Positions 1,965 through 40,023 of a stretch of DNA of 46,473 nt are shown here, piece by piece; position 1 is the first letter of the stretch, and each line of letters starts with the position of its first letter. The notes under the pieces are model-generated. The model ran no database searches, was not told where the DNA came from, and saw only the letters and a list, made by a program, of their open reading frames with translations. Origin of the DNA: an uncultured Barnesiella sp. (GTDB taxonomy: Bacteria > Bacteroidota > Bacteroidia > Bacteroidales > Barnesiellaceae); contig CALUFO010000022.1 of the NCBI GenBank assembly GCA_944320015.1, forward strand, positions 1 through 46,473. The letters run 5' to 3'. The position numbers were made by a program, and so were the translations under genes.

Positions 1965-2828
1965 TCATTCGATACCTTCGGCGGCTTTTTGGCCGAGTGA
2001 GGCGATAATTTTTTCTGTTTCGGCTGCTATCCACACCGCCTGCCGCGAATTTTTCAAGGAGTCGGGTATGGGGGAATGGCGTTTTTTATGGAATATTTCA
2101 CCGGTTATATCGCTCGATTCGGGGAGTGTTGCCGCGCAGATCGCCCCGATAGCTCCTTCGTGCGGCGAACTGATGAATGGGCGGAAAAACAGGTTGGCCA
2201 AGGGGTCTACCCACGAGTGCATGGTAATCATGTCGGTGTCGACCACACCCGGGTCGGCGGCGTTTACGGCTATTCCACGGGGTTGCAACTCTTGCGACAG
2301 CCGTGCCGTATAGATGGTAAGAGCCAGTTTCGAGCGGCTGTAAGCCTTGAACCGTTTGTAGGTTCTGGGCGAGTCGTCGAAAAACGAGGAGTCTATCTTA
2401 CCGATGTATCGGGTGAGCGAGGTGGTCGTGACGATGCGGCTGCCCGATGGCATGAGGGGAAGCAGCCATCGGGTGAGGGCGACAGTCCCGATATAGTTGA
2501 CTCCTACGGTCATCTCGAACCCGTCGACCGTTTGTCCGAAACTTTTGCACATCACTCCGGCATTGTTGACAAGCGCTTTTATGGCTACCCCTTCTTGGGT
2601 GAGTTGTTTGCAAAACTGTGCGATAGATTTCATCGAGGCGAGGTCGAGGGGGCGTAACACCACCTCGGGATTGCCGGTTTCTTCGATAATCCTTTGTTGT
2701 ACGGGTTGCGATTTGGCTATGTTGCGACAGGCCATGACGACGGGCAGCCCCTGTGCGGCGAGGGCTTCGGTAATGGCTTTTCCTATGCTGCCATTGGCTC
2801 CGGTGACGATATAATATGCTTTACTCAT
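1965..2828 (-). CDS. Short-chain dehydrogenase/reductase (retinol-dehydrogenase-like), last gene of the steroid-reductase operon
   Basis: This is a classical SDR of 287 residues. It has the Rossmann motif TGANGSIG (9-16), NNAG (88-91), catalytic Ser about 137 and the Tyr163-x3-Lys167 pair (YSRSK). The ACRN segment after the second strand resembles retinol/steroid dehydrogenases of the RDH11/WWOX type and suggests NADP(H) preference. I chose the ATG at 2828 rather than an upstream start at 2861, because it overlaps the stop codon of the preceding gene (ATGAGTAA, 8 bases), typical of translational coupling. The family interconverts hydroxyl and keto groups on sterols, retinoids and similar lipids. 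With the upstream 5-alpha-reductase and OYE-type reductase, a 3- or other-position hydroxysteroid dehydrogenase role is plausible but not proven. Cytosolic; no signal peptide. Confidence 0.85.
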   Translation of the reverse strand: MSKAYYIVTGANGSIGKAITEALAAQGLPVVMACRNIAKSQPVQQRIIEETGNPEVVLRPLDLASMKSIAQFCKQLTQEGVAIKALVNNAGVMCKSFGQTVDGFEMTVGVNYIGTVALTRWLLPLMPSGSRIVTTTSLTRYIGKIDSSFFDDSPRTYKRFKAYSRSKLALTIYTARLSQELQPRGIAVNAADPGVVDTDMITMHSWVDPLANLFFRPFISSPHEGAIGAICAATLPESSDITGEIFHKKRHSPIPDSLKNSRQAVWIAAETEKIIASLGQKAAEGIE

Positions 2829-3618
2829 CGAGCAGTCGGTGTTTGACAATGAGACGTACACGGGTAGGCATGGAGGCGGCCAGCGGGATAAGTATGCGGT
2901 TGAACAGCCCGGGAATGAGTTGTTTCTTTCCTCGGAAAAGGGCGCGCAGGGATTTGCGCACCAGCCGTTCGGGAGTCATGAGCACGCCCAATCGTACGCC
3001 CAATTTCAAAAGATGGGGAGGCAGTCCGTATAATCCGGTGGCGGCGCCTCCGGGACATACGACCATAGCTTTCACGCCATAGTCGTGCAATTCATAGGCC
3101 AATGCGCGGGTGAACACGCGGATATAGGCTTTGGTCGCCGTGTAGAGAGCTATGCCGGGATAGGGTGTCCAGCAAGAGAGCGACGACATATTGAGTATAT
3201 ACCCTTGTTTCCGCCGGCACATATCCTCGGCGAAAAGACGGGATAACCGGGTGACGGTGCCCACATGGAGCCGCAGCATGGTGTCTATTTTCTCCGGGGC
3301 GGTGCGGGTCACCTCCCGGAGGATAAAGATCCCGGCGTTGTTGATGAGCACATCTATTTGCAAATTCTTTTCCCGGCAATATCGATAGAGTTCATCGGCG
3401 GCTTCGGGGTGCGCTAAATCCATGCAGAGCGATTCCACGGCGACACCAAACTCTTCGACGATTTTGGACGCCTCTCGTTCGAGGTCCTCACGGTCGATAC
3501 TCACCAAGAACAGACTTGCGCCTCGTGAGGCCAACTGCCGGGCAAATTCGAGTCCTATTCCCGAACTGGCTCCCGTGACAAGGGCGGTGTACGATGCGAG
3601 GTCTTTATTTCGGGTCAT
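2821..3618 (-). CDS. Short-chain dehydrogenase/reductase (17-beta-HSD12/DltE-like), operon gene 3
   Basis: This is a 265-residue SDR with TGASSGIG (15-22), NNAG (93-96), catalytic Ser at about 145-146 and YTATK (Tyr159, Lys163). The C-terminal extension of about 70 residues is rich in Leu and basic residues and resembles the membrane-associated tail of 3-ketoacyl reductase/17-beta-hydroxysteroid dehydrogenase type 12 relatives. Its start overlaps the end of the upstream OYE gene by 14 bases, and its stop overlaps the next SDR by 8 bases, so all three are likely translated in a coupled way. Substrate unknown. Context (SRD5A-type reductase and ene-reductase in the same operon) points to steroid or bile-acid carbinol oxidation/reduction. 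A generic lipid or sugar ketone reductase remains possible. Confidence 0.86.
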   Translation of the reverse strand: MTRNKDLASYTALVTGASSGIGLEFARQLASRGASLFLVSIDREDLEREASKIVEEFGVAVESLCMDLAHPEAADELYRYCREKNLQIDVLINNAGIFILREVTRTAPEKIDTMLRLHVGTVTRLSRLFAEDMCRRKQGYILNMSSLSCWTPYPGIALYTATKAYIRVFTRALAYELHDYGVKAMVVCPGGAATGLYGLPPHLLKLGVRLGVLMTPERLVRKSLRALFRGKKQLIPGLFNRILIPLAASMPTRVRLIVKHRLLDE

Positions 3619-4855
3619 TGCGGTGAATCTTTTCTATTTCGCGAACGATACAAGGAGGAAGTTGCCCTTCGAGATGTTTGTGGCAAGCCATGTCGATCGA
3701 GTACATGCGGGCGATGCAGTAGTTGGTGTGGTCACAGCCGCAACGCTCTTCCCCCTCGGTTTTCATGCGGTTGACAAAGTCGGGCTCGTTGATGAGCGCG
3801 CGTCCCATCTGCACAAATTCAAACCCGTGGTCGAGAACCTTTTCGATTGTCGGGCGGGAAACCAGTCCTCCCACATAGATGAGAGGAAGTTTCAACGCTT
3901 CGCGGAATTTGAGCGCGTCGTCGAGGAAATAGGCTTCGCGGAACGGGACTTTGGGAATCATGAACCGCCCCACCAGTTTCACCCCATATTTGAGCCACCA
4001 CGTTTTCATGTAGTAAGTCATGGTGGTGATGGGCATTTCGCCGCGCATCACATACATGGGGGCTTTGCTCACGAACCCTCCGCTCAATACGAGGGCATGA
4101 GCCCCCAGCTGTTCGAGCTCACGGGCGATGAGGATACCTTCGTCGATTTCGACGCCGCCTTTGAACCCGTCGCGCATATTGGTCTTGACAATCACGGCCA
4201 TATCGTTGCCGGCCGCTTTCATGACGTTTTCCATGCACATGCGCATGAAACGCATGCGGTTGTCGAGCGAACCGCCGTATTCGTCGCGGCGGCGGTTGGT
4301 ATAGGGCGACAGGAATTGGCTGATGAGATAGCCATGCCCGGCATGGATTTCTACCGCGTCGAATCCGGCGTCACGAGCCGTGTTGACCGCATCGCCGAAG
4401 GCTCGGGCCATCGCCTCGATTTCGTCCTTGTGCATGCCCCGTACGAAAGTGGGCGAATAGAGGTTGAAACCGGTCGACGCCGATATGGGTATCTGTCCGG
4501 CCGTGCTGCGGTGCGACATGTTGCCGCAGTGCCCCAGTTGTATGGAGGCTTTGGCGCCCTCGGTGTGGATAGCGTCGGTAATACGGCGCAGGGGCTTCAC
4601 GATTTCGGGGCGCATCCATAGCTGGCTTTTGAACGAGAGTCCGTTACGGGTGACAGAGGCATAGGCGAGCGTGGTCATGCCTATGCCGCCGGCGGCCACA
4701 CTGCGGTGGTAGTCATATAGTTTTTGGGTAGGTGCGTTTTTGTCGCACATACCCTCGAAAGCCGCCGAGCGGATAGTGCGGTTGCGCAAGGTTATGGGGC
4801 CTATCGAAGCCGGCGTGAAAAGTATAGACTGGTGTTGTGCTTGTTTGTTGTCCAT
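3605..4855 (-). CDS. Old Yellow Enzyme family NAD(P)H:flavin oxidoreductase (ene-reductase), operon gene 2
   Basis: This 416-residue TIM-barrel flavoenzyme has the OYE signatures: an N-terminal ILFTPASIGPITLRNR segment, the Q-L-G-H FMN-loop region at 107-110, and HAGHGYLISQFLSP (171-184) followed by NRRRDEYGGS. Family members reduce activated C=C bonds; relatives include BaiCD/BaiH and the 5-beta-reductases acting on 3-keto-4-ene bile acids and steroids. The start at 4855 (MDNKQAQ) lies 4 bases after the upstream stop; an in-frame extension to 5020 would run deep into the upstream gene and looks spurious. The C-terminal cysteine group (Cys372, 374, 380, 391) resembles the 4Fe-4S motif of 2,4-dienoyl-CoA-reductase-like members, but Thr replaces the expected Cys in C-x-H-C-N-x-C. 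There is no C-terminal second flavin domain. Confidence 0.9.
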   Translation of the reverse strand: MDNKQAQHQSILFTPASIGPITLRNRTIRSAAFEGMCDKNAPTQKLYDYHRSVAAGGIGMTTLAYASVTRNGLSFKSQLWMRPEIVKPLRRITDAIHTEGAKASIQLGHCGNMSHRSTAGQIPISASTGFNLYSPTFVRGMHKDEIEAMARAFGDAVNTARDAGFDAVEIHAGHGYLISQFLSPYTNRRRDEYGGSLDNRMRFMRMCMENVMKAAGNDMAVIVKTNMRDGFKGGVEIDEGILIARELEQLGAHALVLSGGFVSKAPMYVMRGEMPITTMTYYMKTWWLKYGVKLVGRFMIPKVPFREAYFLDDALKFREALKLPLIYVGGLVSRPTIEKVLDHGFEFVQMGRALINEPDFVNRMKTEGEERCGCDHTNYCIARMYSIDMACHKHLEGQLPPCIVREIEKIHRNDPK

Positions 4856-4859
4856 ATTG

Positions 4860-5633
4860 TCAATAGATGAAAGGTATGATTTTTTTTCGTTTTTCTTTGG
4901 TAAATTCTTCGCCGAACTCCTCGGCATACCGTTTATAAAGGGAGGATGCCCGCGGGGCGAGGTTGGCAAACGTCCACCATGCGAACACGGCGCCGGCCCA
5001 CGACCAAGTGAAGATGGCAAACCCTACCCATTCGAGAAACTCGCCGAAATAGTTGGCCGACGATACCCAGCGGAACATGCCGCCTCGTGGTATGTAGTGC
5101 CGTTTGTCACCGGGTTTGCGCAAATGGCGTATGATCGAATCGGACTGGATATTGATAAACATGCCGGCGGCAAAGACGACAACCCCGACGATAAACTGGG
5201 GCGTGTAGAACCAAGTGTCGGGATAATAGTCGAGCGGGGAGACGTAGAATATCCACCCGCCTTGCATAAGTGCGTTCAGCAGGTTGAACACAACGCCCAT
5301 GGCTACGATGCTGAGGGGCATGCGACTATTGCCTTTGATGAGAAAGGGAAATATAAAAGAACGTTGGAAATAGTGCAACTGGAACAACAACAAGAAAACG
5401 ACGCGTACCGGGTCGAACCGATATTCGGCGGGAGCCAACAGCCACAGAATGGTCATGGCGATAAAAACCGGGGCTTCCATCGCAATCCACCCGATGCGGT
5501 TGGAGAGCGAGACTCCCCATTTTTTATCGAAAAACATACCATAACCTGCGCTCACGAAATGAAGGGCTATAAAAACAATGAGAGCCGTAGCGGCCATAGC
5601 GCCCAAAAAGATATTGAATGTTGTCGTATCCAT
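4860..5633 (-). CDS. 3-oxo-5-alpha-steroid 4-dehydrogenase (SRD5A-type steroid 5-alpha-reductase), operon gene 1
   Basis: This is an integral membrane protein of 257 residues with about seven hydrophobic segments. It closely follows the eukaryotic SRD5A family: MEAP with Glu53, LHYFQRSFIFPFLIKG with Tyr88, NIQSDSIIRHLRKPG (161-175), IPRGGMFRWVSSANYFGE (181-198), EWVGFAIFTWS, and the C-terminal KIIPFIY. Glu53 and Tyr88 align by motif with the catalytic Glu57/Tyr91 of human SRD5A2; Asn161, Asp165 and Arg172 align with its NADPH-binding residues. The family reduces the delta-4 double bond of 3-keto-4-ene steroids to the 5-alpha (allo) product. It is the first gene of a four-gene operon with OYE and SDR enzymes, and a promoter box lies at 5655-5662. 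The fold is well supported. The natural substrate (bile acid, cholesterol product or steroid hormone) is inference. Confidence 0.9.
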   Translation of the reverse strand: MDTTTFNIFLGAMAATALIVFIALHFVSAGYGMFFDKKWGVSLSNRIGWIAMEAPVFIAMTILWLLAPAEYRFDPVRVVFLLLFQLHYFQRSFIFPFLIKGNSRMPLSIVAMGVVFNLLNALMQGGWIFYVSPLDYYPDTWFYTPQFIVGVVVFAAGMFINIQSDSIIRHLRKPGDKRHYIPRGGMFRWVSSANYFGEFLEWVGFAIFTWSWAGAVFAWWTFANLAPRASSLYKRYAEEFGEEFTKEKRKKIIPFIY

Positions 5634-5654
5634 TCCTGATAAATAATGTTTTTA

Positions 5655-5662
5655 CAAAAATA
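5655..5662 (-). promoter_or_regulatory. Promoter -7 box for the steroid-reductase operon
   Basis: The minus strand reads TATTTTTG, matching TAnnTTTG, about 22 bases before the ATG at 5633. That would give a leader of about 15 bases. I see no clear TTTG -33 box. Confidence 0.5.
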
Positions 5663-5839
5663 CGCAAAATTGGGGGAGATAAGTTTTTATTTCGATATTT
5701 TTTGAAATAGCCCATATTTTTACATAAAGAAACAAAAGCCCGGTCGAACAAATGGTACCGGGTGGTGGTTTTGAAAGAAATAGAACCGATAAATACTTAA
5801 AAATAGATAAATTCTCCCGGGAGAAACCGAATGAGGGTT

Positions 5840-5847
5840 TAACTTTG
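5840..5847 (+). promoter_or_regulatory. Promoter -7 box for the PCMD-domain gene
   Basis: TAACTTTG matches the TAnnTTTG consensus and lies 20 bases before the start at 5867. The -33 box is not recognisable. Together with the box at 5655-5662 it shows a divergent arrangement with the steroid-reductase operon. Confidence 0.6.
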
Positions 5848-5866
5848 CACAATCGTATTTTAATAA

Positions 5867-6847
5867 ATGGAAATGAATAAACTGCAAAAAACACTCCTGT
5901 CGGCCGGATTGATATGGGTGTCGTTGTTGGGCGGAAGCCTGTCGGCTCAACAAGTGGAGCCTATTGCGTTCGGTGACTTCGAGCGATGGGTCACCCGTGA
6001 AATCAAAGAATCGATATTGCTGGGCGGAAAAACGAAGACCGTCTATGCGATTGCCCCCACCCAACACATCAAGGGAAATGAGACCTATCGGAATATGGGA
6101 GGTTCGCCGTGGGCTTCGTCCAATGTCATGGCCAATATCATGGGTATTATAAAAACCAGCAATACCGTGCGTCCCGAAAAACGGGAAGACGGTGGAACCT
6201 GTGCCCGCATGGAGACGGTTATCGAAGATTGCTGTGTGTTGGGAATGGTGAACCTGCATGTGTTGGTGAGCGGCAGTATTTTCTTGGGCGAAATCGACGA
6301 GCCCATTCGTTCGACAAACAGCCCGTACAGTAAAATGGAGATGGGCATACCCTTTACCAAACGGCCGGCCAGATTGATATTCGATTATAAATACAAGGCT
6401 TCACCCGATAATTTCCGCACCCAATCGACTGGATTCAGTCCTCGGAAAAAATTACCGGGCAAGGATAATGCCGAAGTATATATTTTGTTGCAACATCGTT
6501 GGGAAGATGCCGACGGAAATGTGTATGCCCATCGGGTAGGCACGGGACGGGAACGGTATGAAAACAGCACGTCGGGCTGGGTTAACGGACATTCCATTCC
6601 TATCCATTACGGCGATATAACCGGCAAACCCTTTTATAAGTCCTATATGGGGCTCATTCCCGAGGAGAGCGCATACTATTGCCGCAATAGTAAAGGGAAA
6701 CTGGTGCCTGTCATCGAAGTGGGTTGGGGAAAACCCGACGAGGCTGTGACACACATGCTTGTCATGGCTTCGGCAACATGCGGCACGGCATATGTGGGAG
6801 GATTGGGCAGTGTCTTTTGGATCGACAATATCGCTTTGGGATATTAG
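5867..6847 (+). CDS. PCMD-domain (putative carbohydrate metabolism) exported protein
   Basis: This 326-residue protein has an N-terminal signal peptide (hydrophobic stretch about 9-22, then SLSAQQ; no lipobox Cys). The rest matches the two-part beta-sandwich architecture of Bacteroidales PCMD proteins: a middle GDFERW...IKGNETYRNMGGSPWASSN region, then DNAEVYILLQHRWEDADG and the C-terminal AYVGGLGSVFWIDNIALGY typical of the PF13201 domain. Members are periplasmic or surface proteins of unknown biochemistry, named for frequent neighbourhood with polysaccharide loci. ATG at 5867 or at 5873 (MNKLQK) are both possible. It is read away from the steroid operon across 233 bases and has no other partner here. 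The family call is fairly sure; the function is unknown. Confidence 0.75.
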   Translation: MEMNKLQKTLLSAGLIWVSLLGGSLSAQQVEPIAFGDFERWVTREIKESILLGGKTKTVYAIAPTQHIKGNETYRNMGGSPWASSNVMANIMGIIKTSNTVRPEKREDGGTCARMETVIEDCCVLGMVNLHVLVSGSIFLGEIDEPIRSTNSPYSKMEMGIPFTKRPARLIFDYKYKASPDNFRTQSTGFSPRKKLPGKDNAEVYILLQHRWEDADGNVYAHRVGTGRERYENSTSGWVNGHSIPIHYGDITGKPFYKSYMGLIPEESAYYCRNSKGKLVPVIEVGWGKPDEAVTHMLVMASATCGTAYVGGLGSVFWIDNIALGY

Positions 6848-13244: not shown

Positions 13245-14534
13245 CTATCTCACAATCACTTTCTGTGACCGCTCCCCTGTGCGTACTATGTAAATTCCGG
13301 GATTGTCGAGCGGGATAATGGAGTCGTTGCCGGTATAAACGAGTTGTCCGGCAAGGGTATATACTTGGTAGACCTCCCCGCCATTCTCGACATGTAAAGA
13401 GTTGTCTACTGTGTAGACACGTATATTCTCATCTTGAAGCGCTTCCACACGACTATCGATGCTCTCGACGATATTCGTGAAGTTCGCCCAATGCTCGGCT
13501 TTCCGATAGGCGCTTCCACAGCCGACCGGCACATACAATGTGGCATTGTAGCTGCTGAATGTATTAGCTTCTATGGCAGGCGGTATTGTGGCATAGGATT
13601 TTATCGATTCTAAGCCGTTGCACAATACGAAAGCATAGTTACCGATGCTTGTCACCGAATTGCCAATAGTCACCGAGGTTAAACCGGTGCAATATGCGAA
13701 AGCCTCACTCCCGATAGATGTCACCGAATTGGGAATCATCACCGAGGCCAATTCGGAGCAATATGCGAAAGCCTCATTCTCGATAGTCGACACCGAATTG
13801 CCAATTGCCACCGAGGTCAAACCGGTGCAACTCGAGAAAGCTCCCTCACCGATAGTTTTCACCGAGTTAGGTATCGTCATTTCTGTCAAGCCGAAGCAAG
13901 ATGAAAAAGTCTCACTCTCGATGACCGTCACCGAATTGGGAATGGTCACCGAGGTCAAGCCGGAGCAACCGAAAAAAGCCTCAACTCCGATAGTTGTCAC
14001 ACTGCTCGGGATCATATAAGCGCCACTTTTCCCTCCCGGACATTGAATTAATGCTGTTTTATCCTTATTGAACAAAACTCCCTCTGATGAGGAGTAAGAC
14101 GCATTTCCCTCCGTCACGACGATCGATTGCAAGCCTAAGCAATATGCGAAAGGCCCACTTCCGATACTTGTCACCGAATGGGGAATCATCACCTCTGTCA
14201 AGCCGGAGCAATAATAGAAAGCGCTCTTCCCGATAGTCGTTACCGACTCGGGAATGGTCATCGAGGTCAAGCCGGAGCAACCGAAAAAAGCCTCAACTCC
14301 GATAGATGTCACCGAATAGGTTTTCTTATTATAGGCAACCGACTGTGGAATAATCACCTCGCCCGAATAGGAGCGTCCGGAAGAGTCTCCCGTTTCATTG
14401 GTTACCGTGACAGTGGCCTCGTCGGCGTTGATGTCGTAATAAATCCCGTCCACTTGAAAATCATAGGCACTCGCCGAGGTTATTCCCAGCCAAGCGATTG
14501 CCACCCCGAGCCATCGATGTAATCTTATTTTCAT
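13245..14534 (-). CDS. BspA-like leucine-rich-repeat secreted protein (complete)
   Basis: The 429 residues start with a signal peptide (about 1-23, ending SASA). A short beta region with VDGIYYDINADEATVTVTN follows, as in other BspA-like openings, then about ten LRR_5 repeats of 23 residues (VTIPNSVTSIGxxAF). One repeat is replaced by an insert with SYSSSEGVLFNKDKTALI. The C-terminal 65 residues (VYTVDNSLHVENG...GIYIVRTGERSQKVIVR) match the tail of the first BspA-like protein and resemble type IX sorting signals. There is no InlB-type module. Surface adhesion is the usual role of the family; the ligand is unknown. Hairpin repeats flank the gene on both sides. Confidence 0.9.
   Translation of the reverse strand: MKIRLHRWLGVAIAWLGITSASAYDFQVDGIYYDINADEATVTVTNETGDSSGRSYSGEVIIPQSVAYNKKTYSVTSIGVEAFFGCSGLTSMTIPESVTTIGKSAFYYCSGLTEVMIPHSVTSIGSGPFAYCLGLQSIVVTEGNASYSSSEGVLFNKDKTALIQCPGGKSGAYMIPSSVTTIGVEAFFGCSGLTSVTIPNSVTVIESETFSSCFGLTEMTIPNSVKTIGEGAFSSCTGLTSVAIGNSVSTIENEAFAYCSELASVMIPNSVTSIGSEAFAYCTGLTSVTIGNSVTSIGNYAFVLCNGLESIKSYATIPPAIEANTFSSYNATLYVPVGCGSAYRKAEHWANFTNIVESIDSRVEALQDENIRVYTVDNSLHVENGGEVYQVYTLAGQLVYTGNDSIIPLDNPGIYIVRTGERSQKVIVR
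13951..14306 (-). repeat. 43-bp direct repeats 312 bp apart inside the LRR gene
   Basis: The sequence beginning GAGGTCAAGCCGGAGCAACC at 13951 recurs exactly at 14263 for about 43 bases. The distance of 312 bp equals 104 codons, so recombination between the copies would remove or add whole LRR units in frame. Confidence 0.8.
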
Positions 14535-37163: not shown

Positions 37164-38849
37164 CTATCGGAGTGCGACGCCGTGCCGCTCGAAGGCGAGC
37201 CTGTCTTCTGCGTCAAAAGGGATAAGCCGCACGGGAACGGGAGTGTTGCGCTCGCCCAGATAATACCTTTCTCCGGGCTGGAACGAAGGGCTTATGAGCG
37301 AGAACCTGTCGTTGCGGTAGTCGGTGGTTATGCCGCCGATAGCGAGCAGGGTGTGAAAGACGGCTCGCGAATCGAAGGGCGTTGCGTGGTTGGCTCGGGC
37401 TTGTCGTTCATCGTGAGGGTATCGCCGGATATATTGAGGCGAAAACCAAAGGATACAAGGTACATGCAACTGGTAGTAGGTGGGACGGGGCGACGCATGG
37501 AGGAATCGGTTGCGGTCGTCGTCGAGCAGGTCCTCCCCGTGGTCCGACAGGTAGAGCATGGCGGCCGTATGGCCGGTACGGGCGAGCCGCTCGATAATCT
37601 GGTAGAGCAATCGGTCGGTGGCTACGATCGAGTTGTCGTAGGCATTGGTCATCGCCAGTCGGTTTTTACGGTCTATCTTGTCGATGCGGTCGGGGGTGAA
37701 GACTCGGCAGTCGAGGCCGTATCGTTCGTCATAATTGAAGTGGGAGCCGTAGGTGTGCAAGACGATAAATTGTTTCTTCGCTCCGCTGTTGAGCAACGAG
37801 TCGAGCAAAGGCAGTAAATCTTCGTCGTATGGGTGTGCGTTTGAGGGTGTAGGGGCGAGGTAGCGGGAGCAATCGGCTTCGTCGGCAAAGAACTCGGTAA
37901 ACGAGCCGTTGTGCCGTTGGTTGGAGAGGAAGGCTGTACGGAATCCCGCTTGGCCGAAAGCCGTGATAAGACTCTTTTGCCGGTAGATTTGTCGAAAGTC
38001 CGTGGCTCCGGCCGCACAGAGCATGAGCGGTACGCTTTTGTGGGTGGCGTTGATCGGTGTCAGCACATCGTCGAATCGAATAATTTCGGGTCGGGCACAG
38101 AGCCGGGGGGTAGTGTTCCGGTCGTATCCATAGAGCCCCCAGTTGGCAGCCCGGGAGGTTTCGCCGATAACCAGTATGTAGACTTCGGGCTGTTGGGACT
38201 CTCTTGTCGAGGAAGCGCGATAGTCGAAGTCTCGGGAACTTTCTCGATATTGCTGTGAGGCTTTCCAACTTTCGATGGCAAAGCGGGCGTTGTTGAAAGC
38301 ATTGATAGGGTAGAGGTTGTCGAGGCGTGCCTTTTGCGGGACTTGGCGGTGTGCCGAGTGATAGAGCGCGGCTCCGCTGCCGAGCATGAGCATGGCTAAA
38401 ATGAATGTCCGTTTTCGGAATTGGGGGGAGACCCTTTCGGATCGGCGTATGGAACAGACAGCCAATATCAAAGCGGGGAGATAGAGCAAGAGGACTCCGA
38501 TGACGGCCGGAGCCAGTTTGTTGAGCAATTCGAGAGCCTCGCCGCTGTTGGTGGTAAAAATGTTCAGATACATGTCGGAAGCGATAATCGAGTGCCCGAA
38601 CAGATAGAGCAGCACCAATTGTACCGCTCCGACAAAGTGGAGCGGAAGAAGCGCCAAAAAAATAATACCCGGGCGGCGAGAGAGGTTGAGCAAGAGCAGG
38701 TAAAGGGCTCCCGGTATGAGTATATATGCTCCTTTGAAAAGAGCCGGCAACGGTTCGGTAAAGCATAGAAAGATATTGGGAACCAGTATGATTCCCAAGA
38801 AAAATACAAACAGTCGTTGCGGGGTGAACAGGAGACTAAAACGCTTCAT
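37164..38849 (-). CDS. Phosphoethanolamine transferase-like membrane enzyme (EptA/sulfatase family)
   Basis: The 561 residues start with about five membrane helices (to about 170) and continue with a periplasmic sulfatase/alkaline-phosphatase fold domain. LVIGETSRAANWGLYGYDRN carries the metal-binding Glu230 and the nucleophile Thr231. TPINATHKSVPLML, VLHTYGSHFNYDERY, YDNSIVATDRLL and LYLSDHGEDLLDD complete the EptA/CptA pattern. The family adds phosphoethanolamine to lipid A or glycans. The start at 38849 overlaps the end of the upstream Omp85-type gene by 14 bases; the earlier alternative at 38894 lies deeper inside it. Lipid A modification and polymyxin tolerance are plausible, not shown. 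Confidence 0.9.
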   Translation of the reverse strand: MKRFSLLFTPQRLFVFFLGIILVPNIFLCFTEPLPALFKGAYILIPGALYLLLLNLSRRPGIIFLALLPLHFVGAVQLVLLYLFGHSIIASDMYLNIFTTNSGEALELLNKLAPAVIGVLLLYLPALILAVCSIRRSERVSPQFRKRTFILAMLMLGSGAALYHSAHRQVPQKARLDNLYPINAFNNARFAIESWKASQQYRESSRDFDYRASSTRESQQPEVYILVIGETSRAANWGLYGYDRNTTPRLCARPEIIRFDDVLTPINATHKSVPLMLCAAGATDFRQIYRQKSLITAFGQAGFRTAFLSNQRHNGSFTEFFADEADCSRYLAPTPSNAHPYDEDLLPLLDSLLNSGAKKQFIVLHTYGSHFNYDERYGLDCRVFTPDRIDKIDRKNRLAMTNAYDNSIVATDRLLYQIIERLARTGHTAAMLYLSDHGEDLLDDDRNRFLHASPRPTYYQLHVPCILWFSPQYIRRYPHDERQARANHATPFDSRAVFHTLLAIGGITTDYRNDRFSLISPSFQPGERYYLGERNTPVPVRLIPFDAEDRLAFERHGVALR

Positions 38850-40023
38850 TGATGTTGAATATGAATCCCGATTGCCCTTTCTTCCCAAAGCCATAGTCGA
38901 GCCGTAGGTTTACCCGGTCCTTAAATTCCCAGCGATAGCCAATCCCATAGTTGGGCAGGGTCTCATTCCATCGGAAGTGGGAAAATGAGGGAAACACGTT
39001 GCCTGCTCCCACCCACACGACTATCCCGTTGCGGCGCCAAATGTGCTGGCGCAGTTCTATCTGTGCCTCGATTAGATTTTTATCGCGGTATCGTCCCTCG
39101 TAGTATCCTCGCATGCGGGAGGAGCCTCCCAGTGAGGCGAGCATGTTCCACGGCACGTCGCCGTAGTTGAATTCGCTGTGCAAGTCGAAAGCGAGGATTG
39201 CCCCTTGCCACAACCGGTGATAGCTGTCGAAAGTAAAATCGGTATGGGCGAAAACATTCTTATTGCCGATTATCCGGGGGTAGTAACGCTGGTTTACCCT
39301 CACATAGAGCCCTTTGGCCGCATTGGGAATAAAATCGCGGCTGTCATAGATGAGCGTAACACCTAAACTTGCGCTGGTCACCTCGTGCGATTCCCCATTG
39401 AGCAACTGGGGGTTGGTGAAGTCCGAAGCCTTCACCCAGTTGAATCCCGTGGAGATACCTTCGTAGAGGTATTTATGAAAGCGAGCCAGCCAATCGATGC
39501 GGATAATGGTTTCGAGTCGGTCGTATGTGCTTTTGTTGGCGTTGTCGTTGCCGTTGGCATAGCCTATTCCCCAAAAGTCGCTCGGGAATGTGTAGAGGAA
39601 AAAATCGTAGTCGATGCGGTATCGGTTTTCGGGAAAGATGTTGTTTCCCCGCAAACCTATCAGCAGGAACCCGCTGGTTGTTGCGTCGCCGTAGAGCGAT
39701 ACATTGGAGAGACGGGTGACCGAGTCTCTTCGCATGCGGTAGGTACCCGAGGCTACCACCCCGATTCCCAGTTTGGTTGTCGAGGAGTAGTGCGGGCCGC
39801 CGATAATACCGAAGTCAAATTTCTTGTCGGGTTTCGGTTTGTTGGAATTGTTGAAATACTCTACGACTTTTTGAAAGACGTTCGTTTTCCGGGGCGGGAT
39901 GCTATCCGGCGGGTTGTTGGCCGTGAAGTGAGCGCTGTCGGCTCTCACTTGGGCGTATGTGCAAATCGGCGCGGAGCAAATCAGTCCGAGGCATAATAAG
40001 AAGTATAGGGTAAATTGTTTCAT
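38836..40023 (-). CDS. Short BamA/TamA-type outer-membrane barrel protein without POTRA domains
   Basis: The 395-residue protein has a signal peptide (about 1-24, ending TYAQ), a Pro/Lys-rich linker (about 30-68) and a beta-barrel of alternating aromatic strands ending in FIFNINEAF. The loop-6 signature of Omp85 barrels is visible as RMRGYYEGRYRDK (303-315). There is no room for POTRA domains, unlike BamA or TamA, so a core assembly role is unlikely. Its stop codon overlaps the start of the EptA-like gene by 14 bases, so the two are coupled and may act on the same envelope component. No clear promoter box was found upstream. Confidence 0.85.
   Translation of the reverse strand: MKQFTLYFLLCLGLICSAPICTYAQVRADSAHFTANNPPDSIPPRKTNVFQKVVEYFNNSNKPKPDKKFDFGIIGGPHYSSTTKLGIGVVASGTYRMRRDSVTRLSNVSLYGDATTSGFLLIGLRGNNIFPENRYRIDYDFFLYTFPSDFWGIGYANGNDNANKSTYDRLETIIRIDWLARFHKYLYEGISTGFNWVKASDFTNPQLLNGESHEVTSASLGVTLIYDSRDFIPNAAKGLYVRVNQRYYPRIIGNKNVFAHTDFTFDSYHRLWQGAILAFDLHSEFNYGDVPWNMLASLGGSSRMRGYYEGRYRDKNLIEAQIELRQHIWRRNGIVVWVGAGNVFPSFSHFRWNETLPNYGIGYRWEFKDRVNLRLDYGFGKKGQSGFIFNINEAF

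Follow-up and report, generated by a model that had tools for sequence, protein, structure and literature searches.

Introduction

Gene clusters for a steroid 5-alpha-reductase (5AR), a 5-beta-reductase (5BR) and a 3-beta-hydroxysteroid dehydrogenase (3-beta-HSDH) are carried by P. merdae, O. laneus and B. dorei among the Bacteroidota, the primary papers on them reportedly being Sato et al. 2021 and Li et al. 2021. A four-gene operon of related content was analyzed in an uncultured Barnesiella sp. (assembly GCA_944320015.1; genome of 2.62 Mb, 95.3% complete). It lies at positions 1965 to 5662 of the window, the 46,473-nucleotide stretch that comprises positions 1 to 46,473 of contig CALUFO010000022.1. 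The operon probably constitutes a steroid A/B-ring (C5) isomerization module, which would convert "kinked" 5-beta steroids into "flat" 5-alpha steroids. It is read in this way because of the indirect pathway published for Bacteroidota (PMC10382948; PMC9645264; these and all other PMC articles are cited for the portions that were available).

According to PMC10382948, the 5AR gene of Bacteroidota is grouped with genes for an NADH:flavin oxidoreductase and for a predicted 3-beta-HSDH, and disruption of the 5AR gene of P. merdae abolished derivatives of allolithocholic acid (alloLCA). In the indirect pathway of PMC9645264, deoxycholic acid (DCA) is converted to 3-oxo-delta-4-DCA by a 3-alpha-HSDH and 5BR, after which 5AR and 3-beta-HSDH yield iso-allo-DCA. 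These accounts agree with the Bacteroidales cluster for isoallolithocholic acid to which the initial annotation had pointed. An Alistipes is among the bacteria that convert 3-oxo-delta-4-LCA to 3-oxoalloLCA (PMC12692668). BaiP and BaiJ of the Firmicutes also yield allo-bile acids from 3-oxo-delta-4 intermediates, but by a direct pathway, and are enzymes distinct from the membrane-associated 5ARs found in Bacteroidetes (PMC9645264).

The cluster type is therefore already known; what is new is a Barnesiella-type member with an extra gene. As judged from published descriptions, the window operon and the cluster of P. merdae, O. laneus and B. dorei both place an SRD5A-like 5AR next to an NADH:flavin oxidoreductase, in related gut bacteria; the 3-beta-HSDH predicted for the published cluster has a candidate counterpart in the window. 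They differ in the second, divergent short-chain dehydrogenase (SDR) of the window operon. A literature search that covered few subscription papers found nothing on the histidine-bearing iron-sulfur (Fe-S) site, the Barnesiella operon or the foregut distribution described below, which is weak evidence of absence.

Results and Discussion

As the initial annotation stated, the four minus-strand genes follow one another head to tail, separated by +4, -14 and -8 bases. OYE denotes the old yellow enzyme family and FMN flavin mononucleotide.

4860..5633, minus strand: 5AR, SRD5A-type steroid 5-alpha-reductase of 257 aa, a predicted NADPH-dependent membrane enzyme (PF02544, fold, residues)
3605..4855, minus strand: OYE, short OYE-family FMN oxidoreductase of 416 aa with its ATG at 4855, the presumed "5BR" (PF00724)
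2821..3618, minus strand: SDR1, classical short-chain dehydrogenase of 265 aa, candidate 3-beta-HSDH by position (PF00106)
1965..2828, minus strand: SDR2, divergent SDR of 287 aa, accessory, candidate second C3 dehydrogenase by position (PF00106)
5655..5662, minus strand: candidate promoter box TATTTTTG (TAnnTTTG), kept in six aligned loci, window included

Pfam scores, with cut-offs in parentheses, were 153.7 bits for Steroid_dh (22.6), 186.8 for Oxidored_FMN (27), and for adh_short (26.6) 148 in SDR1 and 104.3 in SDR2. The ratio of nonsynonymous to synonymous substitution (dN/dS), computed against loci L003, L004 and L006, was 0.080-0.087 for 5AR, 0.054-0.060 for OYE, 0.132-0.159 for SDR1 and 0.177-0.226 for SDR2; all four genes are under purifying selection.

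The 5-alpha-reductase

By sequence and predicted fold, gene 1 is a true SRD5A-type steroid 5-alpha-reductase, and its predicted activity is the 5-alpha-reduction of delta-4-3-ketosteroids. The initial annotation had proposed such an enzyme within a steroid or bile-acid operon, and Pfam, profile search, fold and residues bear this out. The residues that it named were found again: E53 and Y88 (human E57 and Y91) and N161-x3-D165-x6-R172. When the 5AR family profile was compared with solved structures, PbSRD5A was matched at 7.6e-83, human SRD5A2 at 3.4e-61 and TECR at 1.4e-20, with zero further matches at E up to 1. The predicted 5AR model (pLDDT 91.3) was matched by Foldseek to PbSRD5A (7c83; E 6.8e-19, TM 0.91 by query length, rmsd 1.7) and to human SRD5A2 (7bw1; E 8.4e-16, TM 0.85 by query length, rmsd 2.5). 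The runners-up were a delta-14 sterol reductase (E 0.028) and isoprenylcysteine methyltransferase (ICMT; 0.11), among the best-ranked chains that such searches list; a match to some unlisted family is possible. Sequence identity was 39% to PbSRD5A and 34% to SRD5A2, and the fold, the catalytic Glu/Tyr pair and the NADPH residues are common to all three. The initial annotation had named membership among non-steroid enzymes as grounds for giving up its assignment. Identity as an ICMT or as a TECR-like enzyme was rejected, since the SRD5A matches were far stronger in both the profile and the fold search.

A set of 144 5AR relatives, a few of whose entries duplicate a genome, was aligned. Equivalents of human E57, Y91, D164, R171 and R227 were present in 144/144, of N160 and Y235 in 143/144, and of N193 in 140/144. 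At two other positions the window 5AR departs from the human enzyme, with H179 in place of human Y178 and L232 in place of human H231. Position 178 was His in 105/105 of the 5ARs adjacent to an OYE gene, and position 231 was Ile, Leu or Val in 104 of these and Thr in one. In 27 distant 5ARs that lack an OYE neighbor (35-42% identity), Tyr occupied position 178 in every case, and position 231 held His in 20 of them and Asn in five. It was considered that this signature (H178 with I/L/V231) tracks OYE linkage itself. That interpretation was rejected because ten unlinked 5ARs of at least 50% identity mostly carry it (His178 in 8/10; position 231 Ile, Leu or Val in nine and Thr in one; His231 in 0/10), and the signature is thus a marker of the clade, not of linkage. 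H231 presumably sits in the steroid/NADPH pocket of SRD5A2, so an altered fit of substrate or cofactor is plausible in the 5ARs that bear the signature.

The same distant homologs, found without a neighboring OYE gene in other Bacteroidota, are what might favor a non-steroid pathway, in which 5AR would reduce polyprenol or enoyl-lipid substrates and a membrane lipid would be made or trimmed. They suggest that the ancestral role of 5AR need not be gut-related. For the window operon such a pathway is highly improbable: the profile search places both SRD5A structures far ahead of TECR and the fold search is concordant, and the P. merdae 5AR, from the same cluster type, is genetically linked to allo-bile acids in the available text of PMC10382948.

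Distribution of the operon

For the survey of named loci, 80 were kept among at least 583 relatives. The closest named 5AR relatives among the matches listed were Barnesiella and related records (L002-L006, 91-84% identity), including Barnesiella sp. An22. That strain belongs to a set of chicken-caecum isolates in which nearly all Bacteroidetes have a 5AR gene, according to the part of PMC6069880 at hand.

The pairing of the genes is not accidental: an OYE gene of this type, on the same strand and ending no more than 2.6 kb downstream of 5AR, was present in 74 of the 76 named loci with at least 1300 bases of room, the exceptions being L021 and L033. Where room allowed, any SDR was found downstream in 73/74 named loci, SDR1 in 70/74 and SDR2 in 31/71. 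On these linkage counts the core of the operon is 5AR-OYE-SDR1, and SDR2 is an add-on. A draw of 295 genomes from the order gave 72 with a 5AR match (E up to 0.001), and one of 296 genomes from the phylum gave 15, of which only 3 besides the window's own genome had E < 1e-30. Among the loci from both draws, OYE followed 5AR in 16/16 at 60% identity or more, 10/18 at 50-60% and 2/29 below 50%. The OYE-linked label required 8 changes on the 5AR tree, against a shuffled mean of 36.6; this tree has long, unsure branches and was used for clustering only. Among animal-associated Bacteroidales the operon is common and widely distributed.

Two genomes (G414 and G296) each hold two 5AR copies (L109/L117 and L110/L116) of 51-57% identity, on separate contigs and with no adjacent OYE. 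At L137 and L142, two of the distant OYE-less loci, a different SDR with 26% identity to SDR1 follows directly after 5AR.

The flavin oxidoreductase

The OYE protein consists of one FMN barrel and a short C-terminal tail, without a flavin adenine dinucleotide (FAD)/NADH domain. The initial annotation had placed it in the family of bacterial 5-beta-/delta-4-reductases. Membership in the curated BaiCD family was not supported: the protein scored 186.3 bits against the BaiCD equivalog model, whose cut-off is 825, it is too short for the model, its FAD domain is absent, and its Fe-S site is changed. It was accordingly rejected as a BaiCD equivalog. What it has in common with BaiCD and with the steroid 5-beta-reductase ci2350 is the OYE-type FMN barrel and the proposed chemistry at delta-4-3-keto steroids; what sets it apart is its short length, the absence of an FAD domain and the loss of one Fe-S cysteine.

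BaiCD itself carries four Fe-S cysteines. The window OYE keeps three of the four (C374, C380 and C391) and has a histidine, H376, beside the lost one. Among 103 complete OYE tails, Cys 374, 380 and 391 were present in 103/103 and Cys 377 in none, while His376 was present in 100. The tail could be aligned through residue 416 with 2-naphthoyl-CoA reductase (NCR; 6qkg), trimethylamine dehydrogenase (TMADH; 2tmd) and 2,4-dienoyl-CoA reductase (DCR; 1ps9), the nearest solved systems; the top-scoring single-barrel OYEs stop at about residue 370. TMADH hands its electrons to the electron-transferring flavoprotein, and an OYE with an Fe-S tail and no FAD domain would suit an enzyme that, like TMADH, donates electrons to an outside carrier.

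The barrel residues H171, H174 and Y176 were identical in 105/105 OYEs, and residues of this type are expected of ene-reductases. Their invariance would fit an OYE that acts as an NAD(P)H-driven reductase opposing 5AR, instead of as a dehydrogenase, and a gut Firmicute does possess an OYE-family enzyme that uses NADH to reduce progesterone to the 5-beta product (PMC12238238). The window protein is built otherwise, with 416 aa against the 642 positions of the BaiCD model and a score far under its cut-off. The available portion of PMC12238238 also gives N166 and S171 as the steroid-clade residues, and Y or S, and E, as those of the bile-acid clade; where ci2350 has N166 and S171 the window OYE has G175 and Q180, in an alignment made by motif only. 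Two opposing reductases on one transcript would moreover counteract each other, and isomerization accounts for their pairing. We therefore regard an OYE working as a reductase against 5AR as unlikely.

The short-chain dehydrogenases

In SDR1, S145/S146, Y159 and K163 were near-invariant (69 sequences), and in SDR2 the same was true of S137, Y163 and K167 (34 sequences). Both proteins read as classical SDRs with the Ser-Tyr-Lys catalytic residues intact. A recent origin of SDR2 as a copy of SDR1 was rejected, the two being 25% identical across the aligned part. The initial annotation had called both hydroxysteroid-dehydrogenase-like, a description that drew no support from the NCBIfam models shown or from the names of solved structures. 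No NCBIfam cut-off was reached among the 25 families shown of 219 for SDR1 and of 202 for SDR2, the best match of SDR2 being PRK06197, below its cut-off. Among 16 and 7 solved-structure matches, respectively, none was named as an HSDH, and many of the names are generic.

Proposed pathway

If the operon is a C5 isomerization module, the pathway would begin with oxidation of the 3-hydroxyl to a 3-ketone by one of the SDRs. OYE would then dehydrogenate the 5-beta 3-ketone to a 3-oxo-delta-4 steroid, and its electrons may pass from FMN to the C-terminal cluster and on to an outside acceptor, as the fold and the missing FAD domain suggest. The membrane 5AR would use NADPH to reduce the delta-4 bond, giving the 5-alpha ("allo", flat) 3-ketone, which an SDR would probably turn into a 3-beta-hydroxyl, judging by synteny with the published cluster. 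The initial annotation had supposed that all four stereochemical outcomes could be reached. This is less likely than a directed course from 5-beta through delta-4 to 5-alpha, which is how the portion of PMC9645264 consulted reads the cluster.

Several points weigh against an isomerization module. OYE falls short of BaiCD in score, in length and in the four-cysteine motif. The direction in which it works is predicted, as are the activities of all four enzymes, and the label of 3-beta-HSDH is for either SDR a candidate one, taken from gene position. Substrates and SDR roles are likewise predicted, beside computed folds, residues, conservation and linkage.

Substrate range

A gene of the bile salt hydrolase (BSH) family (PF02275, 225.9 bits) was found in the window's own genome, and deconjugated bile acids are on this account a likely substrate there. 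Other 3-oxo steroids are probably accepted across the order. The BSH-family gene lies at 4845-6014 of locus L148 (matched part C2:180214-181146), has an apparent signal peptide and is adjoined on the opposite strand by a large leucine-rich-repeat open reading frame.

PF02275 was compared in 28 of the 80 named genomes, namely all ten labeled as foregut and 18 chosen others. For five of the foregut labels the genome title mentions rumen, reticulum or abomasum; the other five come from the name RUG, which we take to denote rumen genomes. The 5AR-OYE-SDR1 core was kept in 9/10 foregut-labeled genomes, with OYE about 4 kb away in the exception, L021. Strong PF02275 matches were found in 0/10 of them (seven with none, three with weak partial matches of 38-50 bits, the Pfam cut-off being 20.4). 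All 18 other carriers had a match, strong in 17 (127.6-236.8 bits) and weak in L079. The line between strong and weak was drawn after the scores had been seen, and the genomes are of unstated completeness. A Fisher test on the contrast (P 8.4e-7) was rejected as proof, since the genomes are non-independent and that line was set post hoc.

Bile acids are reported not to be normally present in the rumen, and allocholic acid (alloCA) to form there once bile acids are added. Because rumen relatives keep the operon where bile is normally absent, bile may not have been its original target. The same chemistry might natively serve a substrate that is neither a bile acid nor a hormone of the host, for instance a sterol derived from the diet or from microbes (plant-sterol ketones, saponin aglycones); turnover of bile acids in the hindgut would then be a side use or a later specialization, and the mechanism would be compatible with C5 isomerization. 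The retention of the core in the foregut genomes, together with the contrast in strong PF02275 matches, is consistent with an operon that is retained for a different steroid and is also able to turn over bile acids. Against this, the three weak foregut matches still exceed the Pfam cut-off, half of the foregut labels hinge on the meaning of RUG, and these enzymes have no known activity on sterols. The independent lineages are also few: the foregut label changes twice on the 5AR tree across the 28 genomes, and three of the 5ARs (L062, L071 and L080) are near-identical. A native sterol substrate is thus possible but, on balance, doubtful.

Upstream region and neighboring genes

The TAnnTTTG box (5662-5655), which we take to be a Bacteroidetes -7 promoter box, lies in the divergent spacer upstream of the operon and was preserved in 6/6 aligned loci, the window included. 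An AT-rich block at 5790-5812 of the same spacer was strongly conserved in the six aligned loci, and is possibly a regulator site or the promoter of the divergent gene. The latter, at 5867-6847 on the plus strand, belongs to the PCMD family (PF13201, 88.4 bits). The possibility that it is a bile gene drew no support; its family is tied to sugar-use loci in the available part of PMC2954218. PCMD homologs occur near 5AR, on varying sides and strands, at L002-L006, L007, L010, L013, L017, L021, L024 and L075.

Elsewhere in the window, BspA-type leucine-rich-repeat proteins are encoded at 12-1412, where the gene starts at the edge of the window and is probably truncated, and at 13245-14534. An EptA-like phosphoethanolamine transferase, with a sulfatase domain and EptA_B_N, is encoded at 37164-38894 on the minus strand.

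Biological significance

Allo- and isoallo-bile acids affect regulatory T cells and Gram-positive pathogens (PMC10382948 and PMC12692668, in the portions available), so it matters which gut bacteria make them and by which enzymes. The altered Fe-S site poses a biochemical question as to the direction of the "5BR" and the destination of its electrons. A broader proposal is that the operon encodes a general steroid C5-epimerase with a non-bile native substrate, in which the OYE would be a novel type of FAD-less, Fe-S-wired dehydrogenase with a Cys3His cluster and an outside electron carrier, and in which OYE and 5AR would jointly invert the A/B ring junction with zero net redox change; taken as a whole, this must be regarded as rather doubtful. 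Should the operon predate the use of bile acids, the gut "5AR" would be relevant to sterols of plants and animals, and the rumen would become a setting in which its actual function might be sought.

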